Source: an uncultured Bacteroidales bacterium (GTDB lineage: Bacteria; Bacteroidota; Bacteroidia; Bacteroidales; FEN-979). From it: a stretch of 64,000 nt of DNA. The stretch covers positions 124,001 to 188,000 of the forward strand of contig CAISRB010000019.1 in the NCBI GenBank assembly GCA_903887775.1, in the 5' to 3' direction. Below the pieces are notes generated by a model. That model made no database searches. It saw only the letters and a list, made by a program, of their open reading frames with translations, and had not been told where the DNA came from. Numbering within the stretch: the stretch's first letter is position 1; the number at the start of each line of letters is the position of its first letter. Both the position numbers and the translations under genes were made by a program. Below are positions 13,132 to 45,414 of this stretch, piece by piece.

Positions 13132-13169
13132 CGGGTTTCCGGGTGGCTGGTAATTGCATCCGGGTAAAG

Positions 13170-13970
13170 ATGATGAAAGGACTTGTTTTTGATATCAGGA
13201 GGTTTACGGTTCATGACGGGCCAGGGATCCGGAGTACGGTCTTTTTAAAGGGCTGCCCTCTCTCCTGCTCCTGGTGCCATAACCCGGAAAGCCAGAGCGG
13301 ACTTCCTGAGACTAGTATTAAAATATTTCCCCTGGAAGGCAGGAAATTCAGGGAGGAAGAGGTAAGCGGTAAGTGGATGACCGTTGAGGAGGTCCTTAAC
13401 GAAGTGGAAAAGGACAGGGTTTTTTATGACGAATCAGGCGGGGGAGTCACCATTTCAGGAGGAGAACCAACATTCCAGCCTGAATTCCTGCTTTCACTTT
13501 TCAAAGCGCTGAAATCAAAAGGTCTTCATACAGCATTGGATACCTGCGGATATACCTCATGGGAGAACCTCTCACTGACGATGAATTATGCAGATTTGTA
13601 TCTTTATGATCTGAAACTTTTAGATGACAAACAGCATTTTATGTATACAGGGGTTTCAAATAAGCTTATCCTTGACAATATGCAAAAGCTGGCCAGGTCT
13701 GGGAAACGGATCATTGTCCGCCTGCCTGTAATACCCGGGATCAGCGACACCGATGAGTTTTTCAGTGCACTGCGGACGTTTCTGGGCAAAATGAAGCCTG
13801 AAGTTAAGGAGATCAGCCTTCTTCCCTATCATGCAGCAGCAGCGAATAAATACAAGCGATTCGGCAAGGAAAATTTAATGAAAAATGTAAAAAGTATACC
13901 GAAAGAAGCTTTGTTTCAGCGGAAAAGTGAACTGGAGGCGATGGGATATTCAGTAAAAATCGGAGGATAA
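13170..13970 (+). CDS. Glycyl radical enzyme activase (radical SAM)
   Basis: 266 residues. The radical SAM cluster motif CxxxCxxC lies at C29, C33 and C36 (GCPLSCSWCHNPES), preceded by the FTVHDGPGIRSTVFLKG signature of pyruvate formate-lyase activases; SGGEPTFQPEF follows as the SAM-binding GGE motif. It uses SAM and a [4Fe-4S] cluster to install the glycyl radical on the HypD-like enzyme encoded 23 bases downstream. The Cys-rich ferredoxin insert found in many eliminase activases is absent, so only one cluster is likely. A GTG at 13143 is in frame, but the family begins at the Met at 13170 or 13173. Confidence 0.9.
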   Translation: MMKGLVFDIRRFTVHDGPGIRSTVFLKGCPLSCSWCHNPESQSGLPETSIKIFPLEGRKFREEEVSGKWMTVEEVLNEVEKDRVFYDESGGGVTISGGEPTFQPEFLLSLFKALKSKGLHTALDTCGYTSWENLSLTMNYADLYLYDLKLLDDKQHFMYTGVSNKLILDNMQKLARSGKRIIVRLPVIPGISDTDEFFSALRTFLGKMKPEVKEISLLPYHAAAANKYKRFGKENLMKNVKSIPKEALFQRKSELEAMGYSVKIGG

Positions 13971-13993
13971 ATATCATCAACGAAAGCAGATAT

Positions 13994-16357
13994 ATGACCG
14001 ATAGAATCAAAAAATTACGCGAACAAAGCCTGAATGCCATAAACCGCATCAGCGCCGAGCGTGCGGTTCTGGTAACAGAGTTTTACGAAACAGGCATAGA
14101 CCGAAAGGTTTCGGTGCCTGTAGGAAGGGCTATGGCATTTGACCATATTCTCCGGCATAAGGAAATATGCATAAACGAAGGGGAGCTCATCGTTGGCGAA
14201 CGCGGACCGGCTCCAAAGGCCTGCCCTACCTATCCTGAAATTTGTCTACATACTCTGGAAGACCTTGAGATCCTTGATACCCGTAAAAAAGTATCTTTCA
14301 AAGCCGATGATGAAGTCCGCAGGATATACAAAGAAAAAATCATTCCTTTCTGGAATGGCTGCAGCAACCGTGAGCGTATCATGAATCTGATGTCAGAGGA
14401 ATGGCTGAACGCTTATAAAGCCGGCGTATTTACTGAATTCCAGGAACAGAGGGCGCCGGGTCATACAGTGCTGGGCAGTAAGATATACAGCCTTGGCATG
14501 AACGACCTGATCAGGCAGATCAGCGAAGAAATAAGCAGGCTTGATTTCATCAATGACCCTATGGCATTTGAAAAACGCGAAGAACTCAAAGCCATGGAGA
14601 TCGCGGCTCATGCACTGATCATGTTTGCCGGTCGTCATGCAACCGAACTCAGAAACCTGGCTGAAACAGAGACTGATGAAGCCAGGGTGAAAGAACTGAA
14701 GGAGATGGCGGAGATCTGCAGCCTTGTACCCGCTCGTGCTCCCAGCACTTTCCATGAAGCCCTCCAGTATTACTGGTTTGTACACCTTGGTGTGATTACA
14801 GAGCTGAATACATGGGATTCATTCAACCCGGGCCGGCTCGATCAGCACCTGCTTCCTTTCTATATAAAAGGTCTTGAAGATGGCTCACTTACGAAAGAAA
14901 AGGCTGTTGAACTGTTACAGGGGTTCTGGATAAAATTCAACAACCATCCGGCACCTCCAAAAGTCGGCATTACAGCGCTTGAAAGCAATACGTATACTGA
15001 TTTTTGCCTGATCAACCTGGGTGGAGTGAAAACTGACGGTTCGGACGCAGTGAATGAACTCACCTTCATTTTACTTGATGTCATAGAGGAAATGCGGCTG
15101 CTTCAGCCGAGTTCGATGGTTCAGGTGAGTAAAAAGAACCCCGATAGTTTTATCAGCCGTACGCTTCAGATCACAAGGACCGGATTTGGCCAGCCTTCCT
15201 ATTTTAATACCGATGCTATCGTCCAGGAACTGATCCGGCAGGGAAAAAGCCTTGCCGATGCAAGGAATGGCGGGGCCAGCGGCTGTGTAGAGGCAGGTGC
15301 TTTCGGAACGGAAGCCTATATCCTTTCCGGATATTTTAACCTCGCTAAAGTCCTTGAACTGACCCTGAACAATGGATTTGACAACCGGACTCAGAAGCAG
15401 GTTGGCCTGGAAACCGGCAATCCTGAAGAATTCAGCTCTTTTGAAGCGCTGACCAGGGCATTTCAGCAACAACTTGAACACCTGACAGCCATCAAGATGC
15501 GTGGGAACAATATTATACACAGGATCTTTGCGGATTATATGCCCATGCCATTCCTCAGCCTTCTGATCGATGACTGTATACCAAACGGCATGGATTACAA
15601 TGCCGGGGGAGCCAGGTACAACACCACCTATGTCCAGGGTGTGGGCCTTGGAAGCATAACCGATTCGCTGACCGCCATAAAATATCATGTTTTCGAACAG
15701 AAGACCATTACAATGAAAGGCCTGCTGAAGGCACTCTCTGCGGATTTCGCAGATTTTGAGGAGTTCAGGAAAGAGCTGGTATATCATACGCCAAAATACG
15801 GGAATGATGACGATTATGCAGATGACCAGGCACGTTTAGTATTCAGGATGTTTTTTGAGGCAGTCGACGGAAGGCCCACTTCAATTGGCGGAAAACACCG
15901 GATCAACATGCTCCCGACCACATCGCATGTGTATTTTGGCAGTGTCATAGGGGCTTTGCCTGATGGAAGAAAAGCCGGGCAACCGCTTTCAGAAGGTATT
16001 TCTCCCTTCCAGGGGGCTGATCATAAAGGCCCCACTGCCGTGCTGAAGTCGGCAAGTAAAATAGACCATCTTCTGACCGGCGGCACCCTGCTGAACCAGA
16101 AATTCTCGCCTTCATTTTTTGAAGGGGATGAAGCAATCAGCAAACTCACGAGCCTTATCCGTTCCTGGTTCAGGATGGATGGTCACCATATACAATTCAA
16201 CGTGGTGAATGCGGCGACTCTCAGAGATGCACAGAAACATCCTGAAAAACACCGTGACCTGATAGTCCGTGTCGCAGGGTACAGTGATTATTTTAATGAC
16301 CTGGGCGAGGATCTTCAGAATGAGATCATCCGGAGGACAGAACACGAAGGAGTTTAA
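13994..16357 (+). CDS. hypD: Glycyl radical enzyme, trans-4-hydroxy-L-proline dehydratase type
   Basis: 787 residues, normal for the family. The thiyl Cys and general base Glu lie in SGCVEAG (C431, E433) and the radical Gly in RVAGYSD (G762). GCVE marks the dehydratase/lyase branch rather than PFL. Compared from memory with Clostridioides difficile HypD (C434, E436, G765, F152, H160, D278), the residues C431, E433, G762, F149, H157 and D275 are present at a constant offset of three, and EFQEQRAPGH and ELNTWDSFNPGRLDQH are nearly the same. HypD dehydrates trans-4-hydroxyproline to 1-pyrroline-5-carboxylate. The activase lies upstream. No proC nearby. Another GRE dehydratase role is possible but less likely. 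Confidence 0.85.
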   Translation: MTDRIKKLREQSLNAINRISAERAVLVTEFYETGIDRKVSVPVGRAMAFDHILRHKEICINEGELIVGERGPAPKACPTYPEICLHTLEDLEILDTRKKVSFKADDEVRRIYKEKIIPFWNGCSNRERIMNLMSEEWLNAYKAGVFTEFQEQRAPGHTVLGSKIYSLGMNDLIRQISEEISRLDFINDPMAFEKREELKAMEIAAHALIMFAGRHATELRNLAETETDEARVKELKEMAEICSLVPARAPSTFHEALQYYWFVHLGVITELNTWDSFNPGRLDQHLLPFYIKGLEDGSLTKEKAVELLQGFWIKFNNHPAPPKVGITALESNTYTDFCLINLGGVKTDGSDAVNELTFILLDVIEEMRLLQPSSMVQVSKKNPDSFISRTLQITRTGFGQPSYFNTDAIVQELIRQGKSLADARNGGASGCVEAGAFGTEAYILSGYFNLAKVLELTLNNGFDNRTQKQVGLETGNPEEFSSFEALTRAFQQQLEHLTAIKMRGNNIIHRIFADYMPMPFLSLLIDDCIPNGMDYNAGGARYNTTYVQGVGLGSITDSLTAIKYHVFEQKTITMKGLLKALSADFADFEEFRKELVYHTPKYGNDDDYADDQARLVFRMFFEAVDGRPTSIGGKHRINMLPTTSHVYFGSVIGALPDGRKAGQPLSEGISPFQGADHKGPTAVLKSASKIDHLLTGGTLLNQKFSPSFFEGDEAISKLTSLIRSWFRMDGHHIQFNVVNAATLRDAQKHPEKHRDLIVRVAGYSDYFNDLGEDLQNEIIRRTEHEGV

Positions 16358-22652: not shown

Positions 22653-23570
22653 TCAACACCGGCCTCCCGGAGTCAGGACTTTTGGTATCAGCCTGAAACG
22701 AACATCCGGGATATCCTGGTTTATCCTGGATAACATATTTTGTTCGATCTGCATGATTTTTTGAAGAGAAATTCCCGGGTCAAAAAGTAATTCGATCTCA
22801 ATGACTTTTTGTTTTCCGCTCTGCCTTGAAAACATCATTCCAAAACCAGTGTATTCTTTATAAAACTCTGTAGCAACTTTCAGTATTTTAAGCATATCTT
22901 TTTCAGGCAATGGAAGGTCGATCAGTGAACGGAAATTGTCGATAATGAGGGGCAGGCCAACCCTGAGCATATACAATGACAGTATGACCGACAAAACCGG
23001 GTCTACTATGGCACTAAGGTAGTCAAAACCGAGGACCGACAGGAGGTATCCGGCCAGGAACGCCAGGAACAGGAAGGAATCCGATGTGAGGGAGACGTTG
23101 AAATTGATGTTATATGCGCTCAGAAGAGGTGAAGGATTTTGGTTCCGCCGGATGATACGCATCGTCAGTATTTTCAGCCCCAGGGTCAGGAGTAATGACA
23201 GCGCGACCGGAACCTGGCAGAGGAGGTAGGTAACAACGGGCAGGGGGGAAAATAACCTCATGATAGAGGTAACCAGGTAATATGCTCCTATCGGAACTAT
23301 GGAAACTCCGAAGAAAAAAGAAGAAAAATTTTCCAGTTTTCCTGTACCATTGGGAAACATGAACTGATTTTCTTTCATCATGATCCGTATCGAGATCATC
23401 GCAAAGATCTTTACGGCAATCGCAGCTGCAGCCCAGATAAAATACACGACTAGTGTGACAGAACCCGAGATCATTGAGAAAATGATCGATAAGGGTGTAA
23501 TGATAAGTGAAGAGTAAATACTCAATTCGCTGATCCTCTTCAGACCTTTTAATTCTTCATGGTTATTCAT
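22653..23570 (-). CDS. CDF-like cation transporter lacking canonical metal-site residues
   Basis: 305 residues: six helices followed by a cytoplasmic domain (about 220-300) with VIEIELLFDPG, as in cation diffusion facilitators. The loop PNGTGKLEN after helix 2 equals the HGKAE-type signature of FieF. Aligning by eye to E. coli FieF from that loop, the DxxxD of helix 2 is replaced (WAAAA) and the HxxxD of helix 5 has become SxxxD, so the classical Zn/Fe site is missing. It may transport another ion or be a pseudo-transporter. Another CDF-like protein with the same loss lies at 37214-38122. It follows the rhodanese-methyltransferase gene by 62 bases on the same strand. Confidence 0.75.
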   Translation of the reverse strand: MNNHEELKGLKRISELSIYSSLIITPLSIIFSMISGSVTLVVYFIWAAAAIAVKIFAMISIRIMMKENQFMFPNGTGKLENFSSFFFGVSIVPIGAYYLVTSIMRLFSPLPVVTYLLCQVPVALSLLLTLGLKILTMRIIRRNQNPSPLLSAYNINFNVSLTSDSFLFLAFLAGYLLSVLGFDYLSAIVDPVLSVILSLYMLRVGLPLIIDNFRSLIDLPLPEKDMLKILKVATEFYKEYTGFGMMFSRQSGKQKVIEIELLFDPGISLQKIMQIEQNMLSRINQDIPDVRFRLIPKVLTPGGRC

Positions 23571-23632: not shown

Positions 23633-25864
23633 TTATAAGCCCGGGGTTCTCTTACTGAATTGCACCAGTGAAAACCATTGATTCGTATCGGTATAAATAT
23701 TTGTTATCTGCAGGCCGGTGTCTTTAGCCAGCTGATGAATATAGGCCATATCGTATTTATGAGAATTTTCGGAATGTATGGTCTCCCCTTCCTTAAAAAA
23801 GATTTTTCCATTCATAAAAGGAGTGCTGATTTCAAAACTCCTGAGGGCCCGAAGGTGCATCTCAATCCGGGACTCTGCAGTGTTATAAAATGAATAGTGG
23901 TCAAAGTAATCCGGATCAAAATTGGTTTTGGCAAAGCGATTTATGACATTCAATATATTTTTATTAAAAGCAGCCGTCATCCCTTGTTCATCATTATATG
24001 CTTTTTCGATAAAGGCAATGTCTTTCACCATGTCGAATCCGATGAGTAATTGATCGCCAGTGTTCATTGTTGATCTTAACCCTGACAGGAAAGGAATTTC
24101 CTGTGTTCTGCTAAGATTTCCGAATGTGCTGCCAAAAAAACAGATCAGTTTGTTCCCTTCACATCTAATTTGATTACCAGGCTTTATAAAATCGGCGAGG
24201 ACACCCTGAACCCTGATACCGGGATATTTTTTTGACAATGTTATGGCTGATTTTTCAATGGAAGTTTTACTAATATCAACCGGGATGTAGGTTATTTCCC
24301 GCATCATGTATCCAGGTATCGAATCCAGCAGAACAGATATTTTCGAACAATCCCCGCTGCCCAGCTCAACTATATTTTTAATTGCGGGGCTGTTCATGAT
24401 CCGGGGGGCAGCCTCTTTCAAAATCGATTTCTCGGTACGGGTAAGGTAATATTCCGGCAACCCGGTAATCTTCTCAAAAAGTTCAGAACCTTTTTCGTCA
24501 TAGAAAAAACGGCTGGATATGTATTTTTGGGGAGATGAAAGACCGGTTAAAATTTCAGATATAATTTCCCCGCCAATTTCAGGAATACCGGTTTCGACAT
24601 GGTTAAGCGGGTCATTGCTCCATTCGAACCAGCCTCCGTCATATACAGATACCCTGGGCCATCCCATCAGCCAGGCATTGAACCAGGCTTCGCTTCCGCG
24701 CCATCCGGTACCGCAGTAAAAAGCAAGTTGTTTGCCGGGAGTGATCCCGCTTCTTATCCAGTTTTCAGCTATTTCATGATATTCGCGGCTTGTCTGATCA
24801 AAATTCCTGTAATTCTCCATGTGATAAGCATCTGAGCCGCAATCTGCAAAGATTGCCCCGGGTATCCTGCCCTTTTTTTCGATATAATTATACCCGCTGA
24901 CTTCACCAATGAATTCGGGCCAGCTTCGTACACAAACCAGTTCAGCGAGATTTGAGGCAAGGATTTGTTTTGCTTCAGGCAGATCGACAAAAAGTTCAGG
25001 ATGAACAGGTATCTCTGCCCCAAACTCAGGAACAGGCTTTTTCGGAACATCTGCATATGAAATTTTATACCCCTCATCCTGCCAGGATTGAAATCCTCCA
25101 TTAAGCACCCTTACATCTTTTACCCCTGCATACATCATGATCAAAGCGCATCTCACTGCTCCTATATCACCGGCAGCGCTCCCGGGAAACGGATCCCTTT
25201 TATCAGGCGACATGAATTTGCCATACATGATCACAGTAGTGTCTGAAGTAATTCCATGTTCCTCGAGGGCTTTTTTGAGCTCCTGCGGACTCCTCCTGTT
25301 CCATGTTTCCGGTGCTTCCAAAGCCATTGTATCCATGTCGATGGCACCGGGAATATGACCGCTCAGGTAGGCATCACGGTTGCGGTAGTGAGCATGGACA
25401 ACAGCAAATTTATCGTTTTCGAAATGCGGCGGCCTGTTACCGGAAATCAGATTATGTATCCATTGTGCAGGTACCAGCTTTGAGAAGCGTTCCAGTTGTT
25501 GCATCGGCATTTCAGGATTCCCAGACCATTCCTTTACAAAACGGCTATAGACGGAAACATGATGATATCCTGATTTCAAAAACCTTGAAGCAACTTTACC
25601 TGCATCTGAATTATCATAACCATAAATAATCACATGATGTTCGGGGTGAATCTGTTTATGCCTGACCATTTCTATCCAGTCAAGATACCCTGTCCATTTT
25701 GCAGGCAGGTTCTTTGCGTCCTTAATATGCCCGCCACGGGCTTCATTTTGCAAAGTCCATCCATTATAAGCATCGGCGGACCTTACGTCAATGATCCTGG
25801 TTCCCTGCTCCTTATGCAGTATCTGAAGTTCTGCTGTTGAAACTTCATCGAAGGCAGAATCCAT
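23633..25864 (-). CDS. Fused triple-rhodanese sulfurtransferase and histidine N-methyltransferase (EanB-EanA type, ergothioneine)
   Basis: 743 residues. Three rhodanese domains lie at about 8-125, 140-285 and 295-425. The first two have lost the active Cys (IIYGYDN and IMYGKFM), while the third keeps it in FYCGTGWRGSE (C384), the loop of the anaerobic ergothioneine synthase EanB as I remember it. About 440-743 is an EgtD/EanA-like SAM methyltransferase: SRFFYDEKGSELFEKITGLP, EYYLTRTE, ELGSGDCSK (SAM loop), FFGSTFGNL and SRIEMHL (histidine site). EanA trimethylates histidine to hercynine and EanB replaces a C-H with C-S using persulfide. Both steps in one chain would make ergothioneine without oxygen. 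The fusion is seen; the activity is inferred. Confidence 0.82.
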   Translation of the reverse strand: MDSAFDEVSTAELQILHKEQGTRIIDVRSADAYNGWTLQNEARGGHIKDAKNLPAKWTGYLDWIEMVRHKQIHPEHHVIIYGYDNSDAGKVASRFLKSGYHHVSVYSRFVKEWSGNPEMPMQQLERFSKLVPAQWIHNLISGNRPPHFENDKFAVVHAHYRNRDAYLSGHIPGAIDMDTMALEAPETWNRRSPQELKKALEEHGITSDTTVIMYGKFMSPDKRDPFPGSAAGDIGAVRCALIMMYAGVKDVRVLNGGFQSWQDEGYKISYADVPKKPVPEFGAEIPVHPELFVDLPEAKQILASNLAELVCVRSWPEFIGEVSGYNYIEKKGRIPGAIFADCGSDAYHMENYRNFDQTSREYHEIAENWIRSGITPGKQLAFYCGTGWRGSEAWFNAWLMGWPRVSVYDGGWFEWSNDPLNHVETGIPEIGGEIISEILTGLSSPQKYISSRFFYDEKGSELFEKITGLPEYYLTRTEKSILKEAAPRIMNSPAIKNIVELGSGDCSKISVLLDSIPGYMMREITYIPVDISKTSIEKSAITLSKKYPGIRVQGVLADFIKPGNQIRCEGNKLICFFGSTFGNLSRTQEIPFLSGLRSTMNTGDQLLIGFDMVKDIAFIEKAYNDEQGMTAAFNKNILNVINRFAKTNFDPDYFDHYSFYNTAESRIEMHLRALRSFEISTPFMNGKIFFKEGETIHSENSHKYDMAYIHQLAKDTGLQITNIYTDTNQWFSLVQFSKRTPGL

Positions 25865-25897: not shown

Positions 25898-26102
25898 ATA
25901 ACTTAAGTTTCGGGGTTGAAATAAATTGTTAAGTTCATAATATTCATGCGGCGTTGCAAAAATTCTTATTCCAAAAATTCCAGCAGGAGATACCATAATT
26001 GATTCGTTTAATCTCTCCTTGTTAATTCCCCGCCCCTTAAGGCGGAATCGGGATCCAAGACTGTACTCTGGGGTTAATACCGATGTATCGGGCTCAGGGT
26101 GG

Positions 26103-28593: not shown

Positions 28594-30468
28594 TTAAACC
28601 AATCTTGAAAACCTCGCATTTGAATACGGGAAATCAACTCCGAACGCAAAAAAAGAGAAGATTCCGCCAATGGCTGAATAGATGAATGATACCCAGGTAA
28701 AACCAGGATGAATAACACCCGGTTCTGCCTTGATGAATGTCATTGCAATGCCCACAATGCATACAACAACAGCAACCCACTGGTAAAGACGTAGCCCACT
28801 GATAATCGGCGTTTGCGCCTCGCCCCTGTAAGCCTCTTCAACAAAACGGCCAAGACTCGTCAATATCAGGTATAAACCAAAAATCAAGGGGTTTGAAACA
28901 TGATTGTTCCAGAGGGTGAATAAAAAAATACCAACAAAAAACAACCACAATATGGAATAAAGTTGCGTGGGGTGCAGCAATTCTCCTTTCAATCCGGAGA
29001 TATTGTTAACTCTTGAGCGAGGATGAAAAAACCGGATCCCGATGATGGAGCTGTTAACCCGGCTTCCGTGACAGCAGCCATTAACAAGACATCTCAATCG
29101 CCCCAGCGCCTGTCCCCAGGGCATTACTACCGAAACAACACCCAAAACAACCCAGGCATTAAGACCCATAAGCCACACAAGCAAAGATCCAAACAGAAGT
29201 CCTACAATGGATCCGTAATATCCGAATGGCCTTTTCAGTTTTTCAGAGCCTTCGATGATCTGGGCCCAGAGTGCTGCGCATATGGTCAGCAATACAGAGC
29301 AGATCATCAGGGCCAGTGTATACTCCCGGCCGGCTAAAATACCGCCGCCCATGATGACGAAGAAAGTGCCCAAACCATTGTAAAAGCCATGATTGATCAC
29401 CCTGACTTTCCCGTATGTCCATTCTTTCCATGAATTGGCAACTTTCTCAGCTGCGCTTTTGATGAGAATCCAAATTTCCAGGTAATAAGCTGAAAGAAGA
29501 AATATCAACATTGAAAGAATAAAATGCAGGACTGCGGAACGGCTGTTCGTTAACTGGATTGCCACAAGGCATGATGCAGAGATCATGAATACGATGGTAA
29601 TCTGTACAGCCTGCCGGTATATTGCCTTTAGTGAAATGAAGATCAAAAAAACCGGAACGGCAAAAAGTGCTGAACCTTGCGGAGGAAGGTACTGAGCCCC
29701 GATCACAGGATACTGGAGTGCGATGAAAAGAAGGAAGCATAAGGATAGTATCATCGAGATTGCCCATTCCCTCAACTCCTCGTTTCTTTTCATAAAGAAT
29801 GGGACCGCGCTTAAAAAAGCAAAACTTAAAAATTGTATCAGAGAGGTGTCAGGACCCCTGAACATACGAAGAGGTCCTCCAAATAAAGGTGTTGAAGTCC
29901 CTTCGACAGCTGAGATCAGGAAATTGCTGAGAATTAATACAGAAAAAATCCGGAAAAGCACGGCAATACGATCCCTGAAACGGGGGACGGCATTGTTTTT
30001 GTCAGGAATACCTAAAACAGTTTCAATGATCTGATCAGGAAATCTTCGTTTCAAATCAAAATTTTCATAACCCATAACCAGGGCTGTCATTCCGAGTATT
30101 GTCAATGGAGATACCAGCCATATCCCGCTTGCAGAACCGGCAAAAACGAAATAACCAATCATCAGGATTGCGAAACCACAATAAATAGGATGATGAAAAA
30201 GCCGGTAAGGTCCACGGCTTACAAAAACAGGAGGAGGATACGCATTCATTGGCAGTCCTTTCCCGTATATTCTTAAGGCAATCATGGCCCACAACATCAG
30301 AAAACCGCCTGAAGCCATCATAATCCATCCGGCCGGCTTTGATTCTATTGCCGGGATTTGAATTACAGCCAGGGTATTTCTTGCCCAAAACCATAAGCCG
30401 GCAGGGATTAAAATAAGAAAAGCTATGGCATAAAGGAATTTGCCGGGTCGAAAAAACATGTTTTTCAT
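28594..30468 (-). CDS. Membrane fusion protein: ICMT-like methyltransferase plus Lgt-like diacylglyceryl transferase
   Basis: 624 residues. The N-terminal ~150 residues form an isoprenylcysteine carboxyl-methyltransferase-like membrane domain with SRGPYRLFHHPIYCGF and a Glu-containing ENFDLKRRFPDQ tail. About 150-340 is a set of hydrophobic helices. About 345-620 matches prolipoprotein diacylglyceryl transferase-like proteins: GRLRCLVNGCCHGSR, LLHPTQLYSIL, and SLGRFVEEAYRGE, each near the positions of the Lgt signature. The pairing of a SAM methyltransferase and a phosphatidylglycerol-dependent acyl-glyceryl transferase in one chain is unusual. It overlaps the ABC permease by 4 bases. It probably modifies a lipid or a lipidated peptide in the inner membrane. 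Confidence 0.8.
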   Translation of the reverse strand: MKNMFFRPGKFLYAIAFLILIPAGLWFWARNTLAVIQIPAIESKPAGWIMMASGGFLMLWAMIALRIYGKGLPMNAYPPPVFVSRGPYRLFHHPIYCGFAILMIGYFVFAGSASGIWLVSPLTILGMTALVMGYENFDLKRRFPDQIIETVLGIPDKNNAVPRFRDRIAVLFRIFSVLILSNFLISAVEGTSTPLFGGPLRMFRGPDTSLIQFLSFAFLSAVPFFMKRNEELREWAISMILSLCFLLFIALQYPVIGAQYLPPQGSALFAVPVFLIFISLKAIYRQAVQITIVFMISASCLVAIQLTNSRSAVLHFILSMLIFLLSAYYLEIWILIKSAAEKVANSWKEWTYGKVRVINHGFYNGLGTFFVIMGGGILAGREYTLALMICSVLLTICAALWAQIIEGSEKLKRPFGYYGSIVGLLFGSLLVWLMGLNAWVVLGVVSVVMPWGQALGRLRCLVNGCCHGSRVNSSIIGIRFFHPRSRVNNISGLKGELLHPTQLYSILWLFFVGIFLFTLWNNHVSNPLIFGLYLILTSLGRFVEEAYRGEAQTPIISGLRLYQWVAVVVCIVGIAMTFIKAEPGVIHPGFTWVSFIYSAIGGIFSFFAFGVDFPYSNARFSRLV

Positions 30469-38403: not shown

Positions 38404-38560
38404 GAAAAACTACCCTTTTTTGATATTTTGTAAAAGTTCGTAAAACAGTTTAAATATCTCTATAACAGTATGTTAATGTCAAATTGTTTAAAACTTTACA
38501 AAGCGTTTTTTGTTGTTTTTTGTACATTTGTTTGAAAAATGTTTGAAAAATTTTCCCTCT
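38404..38560. other. Integrase upstream region
   Basis: AT-rich leader between the att core and the integrase. Contains TTTACAAAG/TTTGTAAA-like inverted copies (around 38431 and 38494) that may be arm-type sites for the integrase, and the promoter box noted separately. Confidence 0.35.
38523..38530 (+). promoter_or_regulatory. Bacteroidota -7 box (TACATTTG) for the integrase gene
   Basis: TACATTTG fits TAnnTTTG, about 30 bases before the ATG at 38561. Upstream T-runs contain TTTG but at short spacing. Its location after an upstream in-frame start at 38510 supports the shorter integrase. Confidence 0.45.
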
Positions 38561-39889
38561 ATGAAAGCAATCCAAACCCCATCAATTTTACTATTTCTGG
38601 GAAAAAATTCTGCTAAGGATGGCCGCTTTCCGGTCTATCTTCGGGTCATTTACCAGCGTAAATCATGGCAGGCAATTATGAAATATCCTCAAAGGGAAGA
38701 GCCTGAAATGGCTGGTTTGGCGGGCAAATCCATACAATTATCAAAAAATGATTTTGATAATGCCACAAGTATCAAACCAACTGGCGTGAATAAAATCATT
38801 GCCAAAATCTTTTCAGGGTTCATAACAAAGGCCGATGAGGTAATTAAAAACATGAAACCATTTTTGTTTGAAAATTTTGAGACTTTATACTTCGCCAAAC
38901 CCAAAGATAAAGATGATCTGTTTTCGTCATTGGAAGTTGCAGCTGAGAATATCAGGAAGGAAGGACGTATAAGTACCGCGGTTGCCTATGAATGCACTTT
39001 GAGGTCTCTTAAAGAGTTTACAGCCAAAGAAAAATTCCCATTCGAGAGTGTCACAGTAAAGTTTCTGAAGGATTATGAAAGTTGGATGCTCACCCCCAAA
39101 GTGATTGAATGGAAAACGAAATCCGGCAAGACCAAATCCCGCACAAAAGTGAACGGACGCACCACAGTTGGAATATACCTTCGGAATGTTCGCACAGTCT
39201 TCAACCTGGTCAAACCGGTCGGGGTGCTTTATCCCTTTGGAAAGTCAAAGCAAGGACTCTATACCATCCCTAAAGGCAAGAACACCAAAAAGGCCTTAAC
39301 CCAGGCTGACGTTGCGAAGATTGCCTCCTACCCTGCCGCCAAAGGAACCATTGAGCAAATGAGCCGTGATTACTGGCTGTTCAGTTATCTATGCAATGGC
39401 ATTAATATAAAAGATATGGCCCGCTTGAAGTTCGCGAATATCAAGGGGGATAAGATTACCCTGATCAGGGCAAAAACAGCCGAATCGGTCGATGAGGAAA
39501 CAACCATCGACATCATGATTACCAAACAAATCGGCCGCATCATCGATCTGCATGGCAATAAGCCGGGCACCAGCGATCAGTATATATTTCCCATCCTCAC
39601 TAAAGACATGACGCCGGAGGATGAGTACCGGGCCATCCAGCAGGCGGTGCAAACCATCAATAAAAACATGACGAATATCTGCAGCGAGCTTAAGATTGCC
39701 CGGGCAACCACTTACACGGCCCGGCATAGCTTTGCAACAGTATTAAAGAGATCGGGAGCCTCAATCGAGTTCATCAGCGAATCCCTGGGCCACCGTAACA
39801 AGCAAACCACCCAGAACTACCTGGCCAATTTCGAGGACGAAGAAAAAAAGAAATGGGCCAATATGTTACTGCCCGAAACAGATATTTAA
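38561..39889 (+). CDS. int: Tyrosine recombinase / phage integrase
   Basis: 442 residues from the ATG at 38561. The arm-binding N-terminal domain (about 1-70), a SAM-like core-binding domain (about 115-230) and the catalytic domain (about 245-435) are visible. Catalytic landmarks: Arg in IKDMARLKF, a His-Arg motif in TARHSFATV, GHR in SLGHRNKQTT and the nucleophile Tyr in TQNYL. This layout is common in Bacteroidota prophages and conjugative elements. It sits next to the tRNA-Arg fragment and therefore drives integration and excision of this element. Earlier ATG-like start at 38510 is not needed. Confidence 0.93.
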   Translation: MKAIQTPSILLFLGKNSAKDGRFPVYLRVIYQRKSWQAIMKYPQREEPEMAGLAGKSIQLSKNDFDNATSIKPTGVNKIIAKIFSGFITKADEVIKNMKPFLFENFETLYFAKPKDKDDLFSSLEVAAENIRKEGRISTAVAYECTLRSLKEFTAKEKFPFESVTVKFLKDYESWMLTPKVIEWKTKSGKTKSRTKVNGRTTVGIYLRNVRTVFNLVKPVGVLYPFGKSKQGLYTIPKGKNTKKALTQADVAKIASYPAAKGTIEQMSRDYWLFSYLCNGINIKDMARLKFANIKGDKITLIRAKTAESVDEETTIDIMITKQIGRIIDLHGNKPGTSDQYIFPILTKDMTPEDEYRAIQQAVQTINKNMTNICSELKIARATTYTARHSFATVLKRSGASIEFISESLGHRNKQTTQNYLANFEDEEKKKWANMLLPETDI

Positions 39890-39945
39890 GAATTTCGGTA
39901 AAACCTTCCATCACTCTTCCGGCGATTAACAGCCTGTCATATGTT

Positions 39946-39994
39946 AATAACCTTACCAAGCTGGTTATTACCAGCACGGTAATGATTATTTTTT
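39946..39994 (+). terminator. Rho-independent terminator after the integrase
   Basis: Nested stems AATAA/TTATT, TTACC/GGTAA and GCTGG/CCAGC with a 6-base loop, followed by a T-run. It separates integrase transcription from the phage gene at 40133. Confidence 0.7.
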
Positions 39995-40064
39995 AGGGTG
40001 CCCTGTTGTTGAAAACCTTCCGAATAATAATTTTTATCAACAGAGAGTCCTCGGTCTTTCACCA

Positions 40065-40072
40065 TAAATTTG
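40065..40072 (+). promoter_or_regulatory. Bacteroidota -7 box (TAAATTTG) in front of early phage gene
   Basis: TAAATTTG fits TAnnTTTG. Transcription from about 40079 would give a leader holding a CCCCC/GGGGG hairpin (40080-40096) and then the ATG at 40133. Confidence 0.4.
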
Positions 40073-40132
40073 TTTGTTCCCCCATTCACGGGGGTGGTCA
40101 TCTTGGCCGGAATAAACAAATCCATTCTTGTT

Positions 40133-40990
40133 ATGAAGGTCGCCGAATATGTGCCCAGGTATGGGTTACTGATGAATCTTGATCACACCATATTGGTCCA
40201 GGATAAAAACCTGCCGGTAAAGGAGCTGTTGAAAAATTATCCCGAACTTGAATTGACCGACGATCACGTTAAACAGCTTGATACCATTGATCTTTCTTCA
40301 TTATACACTGGCCTTAATCAGATCTTTGTCAACGAGGAAATCATTATTGCGATTTTACAGAACCTGCTCGATGCTTACATTCATCGGGGTGGCGATTCCT
40401 TAACCTGGCTTTCATCCACCTTTCAAAGATTTCATGAGAACCCTCAGAATTTCAGCCCCGAATTAAGGCATATTGTCGAAGGTTACCTTGTGAAAATGAT
40501 GCATAACCTTACGTTCCCTGCAACAGCTCCTGCCATCGGATTTCTCAATCCCAAATCATTAACCTCCTATGAGAGCAGGAAAAAGAAACCCGCCTTTAAC
40601 ACCCTTCTTGAAGCCTTCAATAACGTATCGGACTATCAGCAGGTCATGGCCAAGCTTCAGGATAAAGGATTTTGCACAGGCAGTGGTACCTGGCACGATT
40701 ACCGGCCTGGCTGGAAGTTGATCGTGGTAAGTCTGGTGAAATGGCTTGCTATTTATGGCTTTTGCAAGAAAGCTAAATTTACCATCTCCGAAATCCAGTC
40801 CATCTGCACGAATACCTTCAAAACCGAGGATATCAGTTCTTCTACCATCACGCATGTTAATCCTTCACCAAAGGAATTTTCCTATCTGTTCAACGAACTG
40901 AAAAAGACCATCATAGTTTCCATCATCCCTTTTCTTGCCTTTCTTATCGATGCACTGGATTTCGATTGCCTGGTTTGCCTCGTTTGCTGA
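40133..40990 (+). CDS. Phage protein of unknown function (285 aa)
   Basis: 285 residues from the ATG at 40133. The central part contains a charged region with RKKKPAFN, and about 215-255 (FTISEIQSICTNTFKTEDIS) looks like a helix-turn-helix-type segment. The C-terminal 25 residues are hydrophobic and Cys-rich (IIPFLAFLIDALDFD then CLVCLVC), which could be a membrane tail. I do not recognise the family. It is the first gene after the integrase terminator and precedes a regulatory HTH gene, so a role in regulation or early control is plausible. An upstream in-frame start (40070) lies too close to the promoter box. Confidence 0.6.
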   Translation: MKVAEYVPRYGLLMNLDHTILVQDKNLPVKELLKNYPELELTDDHVKQLDTIDLSSLYTGLNQIFVNEEIIIAILQNLLDAYIHRGGDSLTWLSSTFQRFHENPQNFSPELRHIVEGYLVKMMHNLTFPATAPAIGFLNPKSLTSYESRKKKPAFNTLLEAFNNVSDYQQVMAKLQDKGFCTGSGTWHDYRPGWKLIVVSLVKWLAIYGFCKKAKFTISEIQSICTNTFKTEDISSSTITHVNPSPKEFSYLFNELKKTIIVSIIPFLAFLIDALDFDCLVCLVC

Positions 40991-41071
40991 TCGGCAAATC
41001 AGGCAAAGGCAATTTGAACTTTTCGCTTTTTTTTGTATTTTATTTGCTGCTGGTTTTAAATCAAATCAGCA

Positions 41072-41398
41072 ATGCAAGACTTTATTCTCTCCCCTCTTTC
41101 CCTCAGCGAGCTTGAAACCCTCATCTTTAACCAGGTCCGTAAAGCTTTAAAAGAATCCCTTCTTACCAGTAACGATCCGGTCAAGGATGAACTACTCACC
41201 ATCGAATCGGCTGCCGAACTGCTGTCCGTAACAGTGCCAACGGTATATGGATATGTCCACCAGCGGGCCATTCCCTGCATGAAACGCCGGGGCCGCTTGT
41301 ATTTCTCGAAAGTCGAACTCCTCGCTTGGGTTAAATCAGCCAGGCGTTCCACCGTCGATGAGATCAAAGCCAACGCCATCGCCAGCCTAGTCCGGTAA
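41072..41398 (+). CDS. Excisionase-like helix-turn-helix protein
   Basis: 108 residues. About 45-98 is a winged HTH of the MerR/excisionase (HTH_17) type: LLTIESAAELLSVTVPTVYGYV then IPCMKRRGRLYFSKVELLAWV. Such proteins bend DNA at att sites or act as regulators in Bacteroidota mobile elements. The N-terminal ~40 residues are helical. It sits between the integrase region and the recombination module. Confidence 0.8.
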   Translation: MQDFILSPLSLSELETLIFNQVRKALKESLLTSNDPVKDELLTIESAAELLSVTVPTVYGYVHQRAIPCMKRRGRLYFSKVELLAWVKSARRSTVDEIKANAIASLVR

Positions 41399-41400
41399 TC

Positions 41401-41425
41401 CCCAACCCCCAATCCCTAACCCCAT
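41401..41425. repeat. Heptad repeat array 1
   Basis: The whole 25-base spacer before the ATG at 41424 is built of 7-base units cccaacc, cccaatc, cctaacc, then cc. One of seven arrays of this family in the prophage; see findings. Confidence 0.7.
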
Positions 41426-43367
41426 GAACATCCAGCTCAAACAACTAACTCTCTCAAATTTCAAGGGAATAAGGCAGCTCACCATTGAACTGAATGCCAT
41501 AACGAATATCCAGGGCGATAACGGTACCGGCAAGTCAACCATTTTCGATGCGTTTGCCTGGTTGCTTTTCGGCAAGGATTCACACGATGCAAAAGACTTT
41601 AACATCAAAACGCTGGATGAAACCAGCAAGGCAATACCCATGCTTGAACATTCTGTTGAAGGGATATTGACTGCGGATGGCATCGAGACTACCCTTAAAC
41701 GGACGTACCAGGAAAAGTGGACCCGTCGCCGGGGCGCTGAGCAATCGGAGCTTACAGGTCACGAAACTCTGTTCTGGTGGAACGGTGTCCCCCTGCAGGC
41801 TGGTGAGTACAAGTCAAAGATTGATAATCTCATCAATGAAGGTTTATTCAAGCTGCTCACATCCACTTTGTATTTCAATTCGATGAAGTGGCAGGACCGC
41901 CGCCAGGTATTGATCCTCATTGCCGGTGAGATCAGTGATAAGGAAGTGCTGAGCAACATGGATAAGGAACAGGTAAAGGATATTACCGCCATTCTCAATT
42001 CCGGCAAGGACCTGGCCGATTTCCGTAAGGAGATTGCGGTTCGCAAAAAAAAGCTCAGCGATGAGTTAAAGACGATTCCTTCCCGCATCGATGAAGTCAC
42101 AAAGGGTTTGCCAGAACCGCTCGATTTCGAAGCCGTCAAGGCCGATATCTCCCAAAAGCAAGCTGCCTTGCTCGAAGTAGAGAATACGATCACCGACCAG
42201 GTCACGGCTTACAAGCAGAAGGCAGAAGAGATCCAGTGCATCCAGAACCAGGTGTTCAAACTCCGCGAAACCATGAATTCAATGCAGTTCGAAGAGAAAT
42301 CCAGTCTGCAGAAAGTCCGGAATGAACAAATGCTGAAGCTCAACGATCTGAAACAACAGCATTCTGTTCTTTCCCACCGGTTGAAAGATGAGCAGCATGC
42401 TCTCGATGTTTCGCTTCAATCCAAATCGTCCATCGAATCCGAGATCAATGAGCTCAGGGCCGAATGGACCGCGGTCAGTATGGCAGAATTGATTTTTAAG
42501 GAGGATGAATTTGTTTGTCCTCTCTGCAAACGGGAACTGAATCCCGAAAGCATTGCCGAGAAGTCCGCACAAATGATTCAGACCTTCACTGAAAATAATT
42601 CAAAACGGCTGGCGGATATCACCACCCGGGGCCGCCGGCTTTCTGTAACATTTGGCGAAATCACGGCGGATATCGAAACTACCAAAGCCGAAGTCCATAA
42701 ACTTTCAGCATCACTTGAATCACTTTCCCAACAACTCTCCGAATCCGAAACTCTGCCAGCTCCCCTGGACCCTGATCCCGATTCCGTCCCTCAGTGCGTC
42801 GAAATCCGTCAGCAGATAGCAAAACTTGAGCTGCAGATCCTCGAAACTCCGAAGCTCAACCTCGAATCCCTCAAACAGCAAAAATCCCGGCTCCAGTCTC
42901 AAATCTACAACCTTCAGGTCACCCTGGGACATCTCGATGTGATCAAGCGCGGCAAAACCCGTATCAACGAACTCCTGGCCCTTGAAAAATCCCTCGCCGC
43001 CCAAATCAGCAATCTCGAAAAGCAGGAATTCTCCATGGATGCCTACAGCCGCTCCCGCATGGATATGGTCGAAGCCCGGGTCAACGGCAAATTCAGTCTC
43101 GTCAAATTCAGGATGTTCAACACCCTCATCAACGGTGGCATAGAAGAAGCCTGCGATTGCATGGTCCAGGGCGTCCCCTATGCCGACGTCAACAGCGCCG
43201 GCAAGATCCGGGCTGGCATCGACATTATCAACACCCTGAGTAAACACTACAGCATCACCGCCCCCATCTGGATCGACAACCGCGAATCCACAAACACCAT
43301 CCCCCACACCGAATCCCAACTTATAAACCTTATCGTCAGCACCGACAAAACCCTGATAATCAAATAA
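41424..43367 (+). CDS. SbcC/Rad50-like ATPase of the phage recombination module
   Basis: 647 residues. The N-terminal head has the Walker A motif GDNGTGKST (near residue 31) in an LSNFKGIRQLTIEL context. Two long coiled-coil arms flank a zinc-hook-like CPLCKREL motif (near residue 370). The C-terminal head holds the Walker B-like APIWIDNRES. This is the size of small phage SbcC homologues. Such ATPases work with a nuclease in end processing. It lies 59 bases before recT, and the MBL-fold hydrolase is a candidate partner nuclease. Confidence 0.82.
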   Translation: MNIQLKQLTLSNFKGIRQLTIELNAITNIQGDNGTGKSTIFDAFAWLLFGKDSHDAKDFNIKTLDETSKAIPMLEHSVEGILTADGIETTLKRTYQEKWTRRRGAEQSELTGHETLFWWNGVPLQAGEYKSKIDNLINEGLFKLLTSTLYFNSMKWQDRRQVLILIAGEISDKEVLSNMDKEQVKDITAILNSGKDLADFRKEIAVRKKKLSDELKTIPSRIDEVTKGLPEPLDFEAVKADISQKQAALLEVENTITDQVTAYKQKAEEIQCIQNQVFKLRETMNSMQFEEKSSLQKVRNEQMLKLNDLKQQHSVLSHRLKDEQHALDVSLQSKSSIESEINELRAEWTAVSMAELIFKEDEFVCPLCKRELNPESIAEKSAQMIQTFTENNSKRLADITTRGRRLSVTFGEITADIETTKAEVHKLSASLESLSQQLSESETLPAPLDPDPDSVPQCVEIRQQIAKLELQILETPKLNLESLKQQKSRLQSQIYNLQVTLGHLDVIKRGKTRINELLALEKSLAAQISNLEKQEFSMDAYSRSRMDMVEARVNGKFSLVKFRMFNTLINGGIEEACDCMVQGVPYADVNSAGKIRAGIDIINTLSKHYSITAPIWIDNRESTNTIPHTESQLINLIVSTDKTLIIK

Positions 43368-43377
43368 ACATAACTCG

Positions 43378-43412
43378 ACATTCAACATTCAGTGTTCAAT
43401 ATTCGATATTCA
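43378..43412. repeat. Heptad repeat array 2
   Basis: Five 7-base units: acattca, acattca, gtgttca, atattcg, atattca. A nearly identical copy (32 of 35 bases) lies at 59402-59436 in front of the capsid gene. Ends 14 bases before the recT ATG. Confidence 0.9.
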
Positions 43413-43426
43413 AAAATCCCATTCCT

Positions 43427-44320
43427 ATGCCAACAGAAAACTCAATCAAAAAGTTCGACCAACCAATGGTCGAAAAGGTTCTCACCAAAGTAAACAGCCT
43501 CAAAGAAATCGGCGGCATCGCCCTTCCTCCCGATTACAGCGCCGAAAATGCGCTTCGCTCCGCCTGGCTAATCCTTCAGGACATGAAAGACAAGGCCAAC
43601 CTGCCGGTCCTCCAGTCATCAACCCCTGATTCTATTGCGAATTCCTTGTTTAATATGGTCGTTCAGGGTCTCAACCCGTCCAAACGCCAGTGCAGCTTCA
43701 TCCTGTATGGCAATAAACTGACCTTGCAGAGGGAATATGCCGGAAGTATAGCCCTGGCCCGCAGGTATAGCTCCATGAAGAACATATACGCCGGGGTCAT
43801 TTACAAGGGTGATGTATTTGAATACGCTATCGACACCACCACCGGCATGAAAAAGATTACGTCTCATGCCCAGCGTATGGAAAACCTGGATGATTCAAAG
43901 ATCATCGGGGCTTATGCGGTGGTGACCTTTGACGACGGATCAGTGAATACCGAGATCATGACCATGGCCCAGATCCAGAAGTCATGGGAACAGGGGCCTA
44001 CAAAAGGCAAAAGCCCGGCTCATACCAATTTCCCCGGGGAGATGGCCAAGAAAACCGTCATCAACCGGGCCTGTAAACTGCTGATTGCGGCCAGCGATGA
44101 TTCCGTGCTGATGGAACCTGGTGAAGATGGTCGTATCGGCAGGGTAAAAGCAGAGATCGAAGCCGGGGCCAATCAGGGTGATTTGATCGAAATTCCCGAA
44201 GAGGAACCTGTAGAGGCCACCATTGAACCTCTCGATCCACCTTCGCCAGCCACTTCGCCCAAACCTGAATCCAAGCGTGAGTGGAAAAGGGAAGTTTCAC
44301 CCAAGGAACCTGGTTTCTGA
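43427..44320 (+). CDS. recT: RecT family single-strand annealing protein
   Basis: 297 residues. The RecT core (about 30-215) has the typical succession NALRSAWLILQDMKDKAN, a PSKRQCSFILYGNKL stretch, LQREYAGSIALARR and MAKKTVINRACK. It coats single-stranded DNA and anneals complementary strands during phage recombination. The C-terminal ~60 residues are Pro/Glu-rich and probably flexible. Its stop overlaps the start of the MBL-fold gene by one base, so the two are coupled, as in many phages that pair RecT with a metal-dependent nuclease. Confidence 0.92.
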   Translation: MPTENSIKKFDQPMVEKVLTKVNSLKEIGGIALPPDYSAENALRSAWLILQDMKDKANLPVLQSSTPDSIANSLFNMVVQGLNPSKRQCSFILYGNKLTLQREYAGSIALARRYSSMKNIYAGVIYKGDVFEYAIDTTTGMKKITSHAQRMENLDDSKIIGAYAVVTFDDGSVNTEIMTMAQIQKSWEQGPTKGKSPAHTNFPGEMAKKTVINRACKLLIAASDDSVLMEPGEDGRIGRVKAEIEAGANQGDLIEIPEEEPVEATIEPLDPPSPATSPKPESKREWKREVSPKEPGF

Positions 44321-45021
44321 TGACACTCAAAGTCCTCGGCAGCGAATCTGCAGGAAACTGCTATCTTCTCGAATCCTTTTTCGAGATCCTCATCATCGAG
44401 GCTGGTATCCGCTTAAATGATGTCAAAAAAGCCCTGAATTATGATCTGCGGAAGGTCATTGGGTGTTTCATCACCCATGCCCATGGTGATCATTGCAAGT
44501 ATGCGACTGACTATCTCAAGGCCGGTATTGACATTTACACTTCAGCCGAAACCATTCAGGCCGCTGCCATCTCAGGCCACCGGGTCCATCCAATCCAGGC
44601 CAATACTATGATCCGGATCGGTGAATTCAAAGTCATCCCCTTCCCGGTTCCTCATGGTGTGCCTACTTTCGGTTTTCTGATCAATCATCCGTTTTCAGGC
44701 TCCATTCTGTTCGTAACAGATGCAGCATATATCTCCAACAAGTTCAATAACCTCAATCATATCCTCATTGAAGCCAATTATGAGGATGCCCTCCTTACCA
44801 GCGACCGGGCCGTGGGTAAACACATGAGCCTCGATACCTGCCTGGAATTCCTGCAGGCAAACGATATGAAGCAGGTCCGCAACATTGTACTTCTCCACCT
44901 CAGCCGCGTCAATTCCGATGCAAAACTGTTTAAAAAATCAGTCCAGGCAATAGCCCCCAATGCCTCCGTATGGATTGCAGATAAAGGGCTTGAAGTGTAT
45001 TTATCAAAATATCCATTTTAA
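44320..45021 (+). CDS. MBL-fold metallo-hydrolase (putative recombination exonuclease)
   Basis: 233 residues. The metal motif THAHGDHCK (HxHxDH) lies near residue 54 and further ligands are in PVPHGVPTFGF and FVTDAAYIS. This is the YycJ-like MBL branch found next to recT in many phages, where it likely supplies a 5'-to-3' exonuclease activity. Starts at an ATG sharing the last base of the recT stop (TGATG). An in-frame start 39 bases earlier (44281) lies inside recT and is not needed. No partner exonuclease such as lambda Exo is present, which supports the nuclease role by exclusion. Confidence 0.85.
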   Translation: MTLKVLGSESAGNCYLLESFFEILIIEAGIRLNDVKKALNYDLRKVIGCFITHAHGDHCKYATDYLKAGIDIYTSAETIQAAAISGHRVHPIQANTMIRIGEFKVIPFPVPHGVPTFGFLINHPFSGSILFVTDAAYISNKFNNLNHILIEANYEDALLTSDRAVGKHMSLDTCLEFLQANDMKQVRNIVLLHLSRVNSDAKLFKKSVQAIAPNASVWIADKGLEVYLSKYPF

Positions 45022-45044
45022 CTATTAATCAAAAATTCAATCCT

Positions 45045-45377
45045 ATGGCAGATAAATTCGAAGTTAAAGAAGGCACCTTCAGCCTCATCAAAGTGTATCC
45101 CGAAAACAAGAAAAAAGAAACCTCCCCCGATTTCTTCGGCGAAGCAAAGTTCAAAGGAGTTGAACTCCGCCTATCAGCCTGGGCCCGCCTCACCGATTCC
45201 GGAAAGATCAGGATCACCGGCTATATCGAAGAAAAACAAATCCAGAACCACGAAAAACCAACAGAGTCTCAGCTTAACGATTACCTCATGACACCCGAAA
45301 TGAAAGCAGCCCAGGCCAGCCCTGAATCATCCGGCCTGGTTTCATTCCAACCGCCCGAAGATGACCTTCCATTTTAA
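45045..45377 (+). CDS. Small phage protein with an SSB-like acidic C-terminal tip
   Basis: 110 residues, basic and beta-rich at the N-terminus (FEVKEGTFSLIKV, KFKGVELRLSAWARL), with a flexible middle. It ends in PEDDLPF, close to the DDDIPF tip of bacterial SSB, which recruits repair and replication proteins. It may be a phage single-strand binding or accessory protein, although no full OB fold is evident by eye. The following primase-helicase also ends in a similar tip (DELPF). Confidence 0.55.
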   Translation: MADKFEVKEGTFSLIKVYPENKKKETSPDFFGEAKFKGVELRLSAWARLTDSGKIRITGYIEEKQIQNHEKPTESQLNDYLMTPEMKAAQASPESSGLVSFQPPEDDLPF

Positions 45378-45386
45378 TTTCAATCT

Positions 45387-45414
45387 AATCCCTCATCCCT
45401 AATGCCTAACCCCT
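45387..45414. repeat. Heptad repeat array 3, running through a start codon
   Basis: Four 7-base units: aatccct, catccct, aatgcct, aacccct. The third unit contains the ATG (45402) of the primase-helicase gene, so units 3 and 4 also encode Met-Pro-Asn-Pro. It shows that the array was laid down across the boundary of the gene. Confidence 0.8.

Follow-up and report, generated by a model that had tools for sequence, protein, structure and literature searches.

The fused eanB-eanA gene and its surroundings

In the window, by which we mean the whole stretch of 64,000 nucleotides that was analysed, an ORF scan found that the minus strand of positions 23633–25864 forms a single uninterrupted frame of 743 codons from an ATG start to a stop codon (included in the coordinates); the plus strand across the same interval carries many stops and is closed in the corresponding frame. 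Pfam recognised three rhodanese stretches and one Methyltransf_33 domain in the 743-aa protein, and we refer to the gene as eanBA. Read from its N-terminus, the product consists of an EanB part with three rhodanese-fold domains, the third being the catalytic one (residues 1–429; 24578–25864, minus strand), a junction of about 5 residues (430–434; 24563–24577, minus strand) and an EanA/EgtD part, which is a predicted SAM-dependent histidine N-alpha-methyltransferase (residues 435–736; 23657–24562, minus strand). When compared to the nearest fused homologue (locus L032), the dN/dS ratio was ~0.14 in each half (EanB: 0.106/0.735; EanA: 0.116/0.820), indicating that both halves are under similar purifying constraint. 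Since fused genes also recur in separate genomes, an assembly or frameshift artefact, or a chance event, was ruled out as the origin of the fused ORF.

A gene coding for a CDF-family cation efflux transporter (22653–23570, minus strand) lies 62 nt downstream of eanBA on the same strand. Close homologues of this transporter adjoin eanB-eanA at loci L058 (76% identity), L011 and L012 (58–63%) and L006/L032 (74%, a fragment). Genome G031 also encodes one (80%), on a different contig from its eanBA, which ends near a contig end; in genomes of the family without eanBA, no CDF homologue above 34% identity was found at the threshold used. Several Bacteroidales, and also one contig labelled Deltaproteobacteria, share this pairing of the transporter with eanB-eanA. 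Upstream of eanBA, positions 25993–26089 contain a repeat of ~80 nt, many copies of which, mostly at 73–81% identity, occur across this genome and those of its congeners. No tRNA was found at this repeat, the Rfam search for an RNA element gave a match at chance level only, and the promoter scan stayed near the shuffled expectation. Elsewhere in the window, a 624-aa protein (28594–30468, minus strand) joins a phospholipid-methyltransferase-like domain to a domain resembling Lgt (prolipoprotein diacylglyceryl transferase), and genes for an integrase, RecT and a primase-polymerase at 38510–47540 hint at a mobile element integrated there.

A PFL-like glycyl radical enzyme and its radical SAM protein partner are encoded at 13143–16357, in keeping with the anaerobic lifestyle that an earlier note on this DNA had proposed. 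Searches of the genome, which is 98% complete, found neither a second histidine methyltransferase nor a second EanB, and matches to EgtB were partial and reached at most 84.5 bits, all below the cut-off of 360 by which we would have recognised the aerobic pathway. The fused gene is therefore the only candidate found, if the organism makes the antioxidant ergothioneine. All seven congeneric genomes lack eanBA and nevertheless keep the flanking transglutaminase region (~70–73% DNA identity), implying either gain of the gene by transfer or its loss in the congeners.

Predicted activities of the two halves

Residues 7–429 (423 aa) aligned over the full length and without a gap to the crystallised EanB of Chlorobium limicola (684 bits, E = 2e-204); the next family, E. 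coli YnjE, scored 304 bits. The predicted fold gave the same order, with a structural Z of 53 against EanB (~63% identity, rmsd 1.9–2.2 over 421–426 residues) and of 44 against YnjE (38% identity). By this full-length homology, clearly above that to YnjE, the N-terminal half is a member of the EanB family. The CGTGWR loop (residues 384–389; 24698–24715, minus strand) supplies Cys384, Thr386 and Arg389, equivalent to Cys412 (the persulfide carrier), Thr414 and Arg417 of C. limicola EanB, and Tyr325 (codon at 24890–24892, minus strand) is equivalent to its general acid/base Tyr353. Tyr353, Cys412 and Arg417 are named as the EanB catalytic residues in a review (PMC10903977). A comparison of 54 rows, either fused or EanB, showed all four residues to be invariant. 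The loop occurs in the third rhodanese domain only and domains 1 and 2 have no active-site cysteine, in agreement with the previous description of two degenerate rhodaneses and one active one. It should be added that E. coli YnjE carries the equivalent Tyr, Cys, Thr and Arg, so that these residues are necessary for, and not diagnostic of, hercynine sulfuration.

The C-terminal domain scored 343.7 bits against the NCBIfam equivalog TIGR03438 (L-histidine N-alpha-methyltransferase), for which the curated cut-off is 290.9 bits, and residues 435–736 matched Mycobacterium smegmatis EgtD with 202.6 bits and a structural Z of 40. The histidine-binding residues of the latter, which we take to be Tyr39, Tyr56, Asn166, Tyr206, Met252, Glu282 and Ser284, are all kept in the alignment to 4pim (Tyr455, Tyr472, Asn583, Tyr623, Met669, Glu699 and Ser701). 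With the single ORF, the EanB match and the TIGR03438 score taken together, an EanB-EanA fusion in one chain of 743 residues, as first noticed from the sequence, is confirmed.

We consider it very probable, at roughly 85%, that this protein is a bifunctional enzyme that would convert histidine to hercynine with SAM and then hercynine to ergothioneine through a persulfide on Cys384; domain homology and the catalytic residues thus favour the one-protein anaerobic ergothioneine synthase that had been suggested. Characterised homologues are the basis on which we infer the two reactions, their sequence and the source of the sulfur. In the proposed scheme, the C-terminal site would use histidine and three SAM to form hercynine, and sulfur from polysulfide would be loaded onto Cys384 of the N-terminal EanB domain as a persulfide. 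Tyr325, acting as acid/base, would protonate and deprotonate the imidazole ring, and the sulfur would move onto the imidazole carbon, so that ergothioneine forms with no need for oxygen. A Bacteroidales EanA together with an Anaerobacillus EanB yielded ergothioneine in a heterologous host (PMC11767532), which supports the function of Bacteroidales EanA homologues. The fusion also strengthens the case that EanB homologues of uncultured Bacteroidales act on hercynine, since a histidine methyltransferase joined to EanB indicates what the substrate is.

The shared catalytic loop and tyrosine would also suit an enzyme with a role like that of YnjE, a sulfurtransferase in molybdopterin synthesis, or one acting on another heterocycle, a possibility that the authors of PMC9516567 raise for some EanB-like enzymes. 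We regard such a different substrate as improbable, given that identity and bit score lie far nearer EanB than YnjE and that the fused partner retains the EgtD histidine-binding residues, Glu699 and Ser701 among them. The junction raises another concern. Linkers among the fused homologues range from ~5 to 35 residues, that of the window protein being the shortest, and relative to the fused relatives that retain them, 31 junction residues are gone from it in-frame. In L058, which is the closest relative without a fusion (79% and 74% identity), EanB ends at a stop codon and EanA begins near MNALKMPTYMNSPIAINDFLVHES; in the fused proteins of L033, whose linker has 34 residues, and L032 the EanA N-terminal segment survives as a linker remnant (...MKIPVAISNFNAHES and ...ITFPVAISNFLANES, respectively). 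This segment, with a motif like I-x-N-x-L, was seen in most EanA-type relatives in this comparison, is no established family criterion, and is missing at the junction of the window protein. Its loss could weaken the methyltransferase. A protein thus impaired would work only as an EanB or would need imported hercynine, and the in-frame deletion, which takes away a segment that most EanA-type proteins conserve, speaks for this; but every substrate residue checked remains, the two halves show the same low dN/dS, and the methyltransferases of a second class linked to eanB likewise begin without an I-x-N-x-L-like segment, so that it is not essential to the wider family. Impairment appears improbable, and we retain the bifunctional enzyme as the preferred reading.

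Occurrence and proposed origin of the fusion

The frequency of the fusion was surveyed using stop-to-stop ORFs in loci from a GTDB-based collection together with whole-genome searches. Eight of 118 distinct eanB genes inspected were fused, all in Bacteroidales-type genomes (the window's gene, L003/L034, L004/L035, which is cut at a contig end, L005/L033, L006/L032, L011, L012 and L062). The search for fused homologues that the earlier note had called for thus returned seven other distinct fused genes in separate genomes, and the fusion is not unique to this organism. A further 75 eanB genes were unfused with a methyltransferase gene nearby on the same strand, and 35 had no methyltransferase in the sequence read around them, which was often short, so that a partner farther away is possible. 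Another 17 loci, drawn from the whole phylum and including a few repeats of loci already counted, contained no fusion. The two members of a pair were usually close, with 58 of the 75 within 120 nt, and in 12 same-frame pairs one in-frame stop codon separated the genes. Two loci listed with open frames of 781 and 783 aa (L039/G417 and L048/G323) were not counted as fusions because a stop lies between the genes.

At L047, L049–L051, L053–L057, L061, L080, L107 and other loci, two classes of histidine methyltransferase were observed as eanB partners, an EanA-like class (42–80% identity to the window's) and a second one (30–38%) with a short N-terminus. In family f83, eanB and eanA lie on the same strand several hundred bases apart (L140/L157 in G124 and L144 in G227).

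On a 44-row tree from concatenated EanB and EanA, the fused label required five changes, at least four of which were forced by well-supported branches. A single clade for all fused genes was rejected (AU p = 2.3e-7), as was one for the five fused genes nearest the window (AU p = 6.7e-5), values that are somewhat generous because the groups were chosen with the tree already in view. Rejection of one fused clade implies that fusion recurred, that fission followed fusion, or both. Most probably, an adjacent eanB-eanA pair became one gene when its stop codon disappeared (or a small deletion restored the frame) and the short spacer was read through; in the window gene, the linker was subsequently trimmed.

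Possible coupling of the two sites and comparison with known systems

The fusion had been taken to imply channelling of hercynine to the persulfide site, with a structure model proposed as a check. The model built from a first alignment (A1) placed the individual domains well (mean pLDDT 88.6) but not, with confidence, relative to each other (pTM 0.60); the junction (417–431) fell below a pLDDT of 50. Confidence was also low at residues 323–332 and 346–353, and residue 319 onward gave an odd structural match onto the EgtD N-terminus. EanA N-termini misaligned onto EanB columns in A1 probably account for the odd match at residue 319 and for part of the low confidence across the EanB loop (323–353); the same misalignment remained in a cleaner alignment (A2). 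A second model from the eight fused rows only, a shallow alignment, was poor (pLDDT 56, pTM 0.40). Hence a path in which the EanA product reaches the EanB site via a shared cavity or a short guarded route, raising flux, seems unlikely to us. The junction of merely ~5 residues is in its favour, as is the slowness of separate EanB, which proximity could help (a kcat of 0.5 per min is quoted in PMC11767532), and, provided that it is fusion and not fission that recurs, the rejected single fused clade would match repeated selection. Yet neither model places the domains confidently, most relatives manage without fusion, and the variation in linker length among fused homologues argues against a fixed shared channel. 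Fusion alone does not imply channelling, and the claim that it does is not supported. It is similarly doubtful that repeated fusion was selected because it couples methylation with sulfuration and passes hercynine straight between the sites. On the simplest view the benefit would be equal expression and proximity, and the fusion probably acts mainly by tethering two slow, consecutive enzymes and having them made at a ratio of 1:1.

The pathway is known; the fusion is a new variant of it, real but rare, and a modest variation. The open-access literature searched yielded no report of an EanB-EanA fusion; the original EanB papers lay beyond this search and may mention one. The fused gene would provide a one-gene, oxygen-free source of ergothioneine, which would suit production strains given how slow the separate EanA and EanB are. 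There is also a parallel to fungal Egt1 in an unrelated pathway, such that joining of a methyltransferase to a sulfur enzyme seems to occur on both sides of the oxygen divide.

Among known systems, EanA and EanB of Chlorobium limicola (Clim_1148 and Clim_1149) represent the same two enzyme families with the same EanB catalytic residues, and in the Chlorobium loci we examined the genes are adjacent in the order eanB-eanA. Unlike the one chain in the window, EanA and EanB of Chlorobium are two proteins according to PMC6282198, and PMC7278568 and PMC11767532 likewise treat EanA and EanB as separate; the Chlorobiota loci we examined also contained separate adjacent genes, consistent with what the earlier note had stated for green sulfur bacteria. 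Fungal Egt1/EgtA (Aspergillus fumigatus EgtA, Neurospora egt-1) resembles the window protein in that a histidine methyltransferase is fused to a sulfur-attaching enzyme; the latter, however, is an oxygen-dependent sulfoxide synthase (PMC5066259) of the EgtB type, unrelated to EanB. The metallopterin-dependent ergothioneine synthase (MES) of Caldithrix abyssi shares oxygen-free ergothioneine synthesis and is also a fusion protein, but of a metallopterin enzyme with a cysteine desulfurase, and its methyltransferase is separate (PMC9516567). Finally, E. coli YnjE has three rhodanese-type domains with the same CGTGWR loop and tyrosine, and differs in its 38% identity, its annotation as a molybdopterin synthase sulfurtransferase, its lack of a methyltransferase domain and the absence of most of the domain-2 stretch SPDKRDPFPGSAAGDIG.
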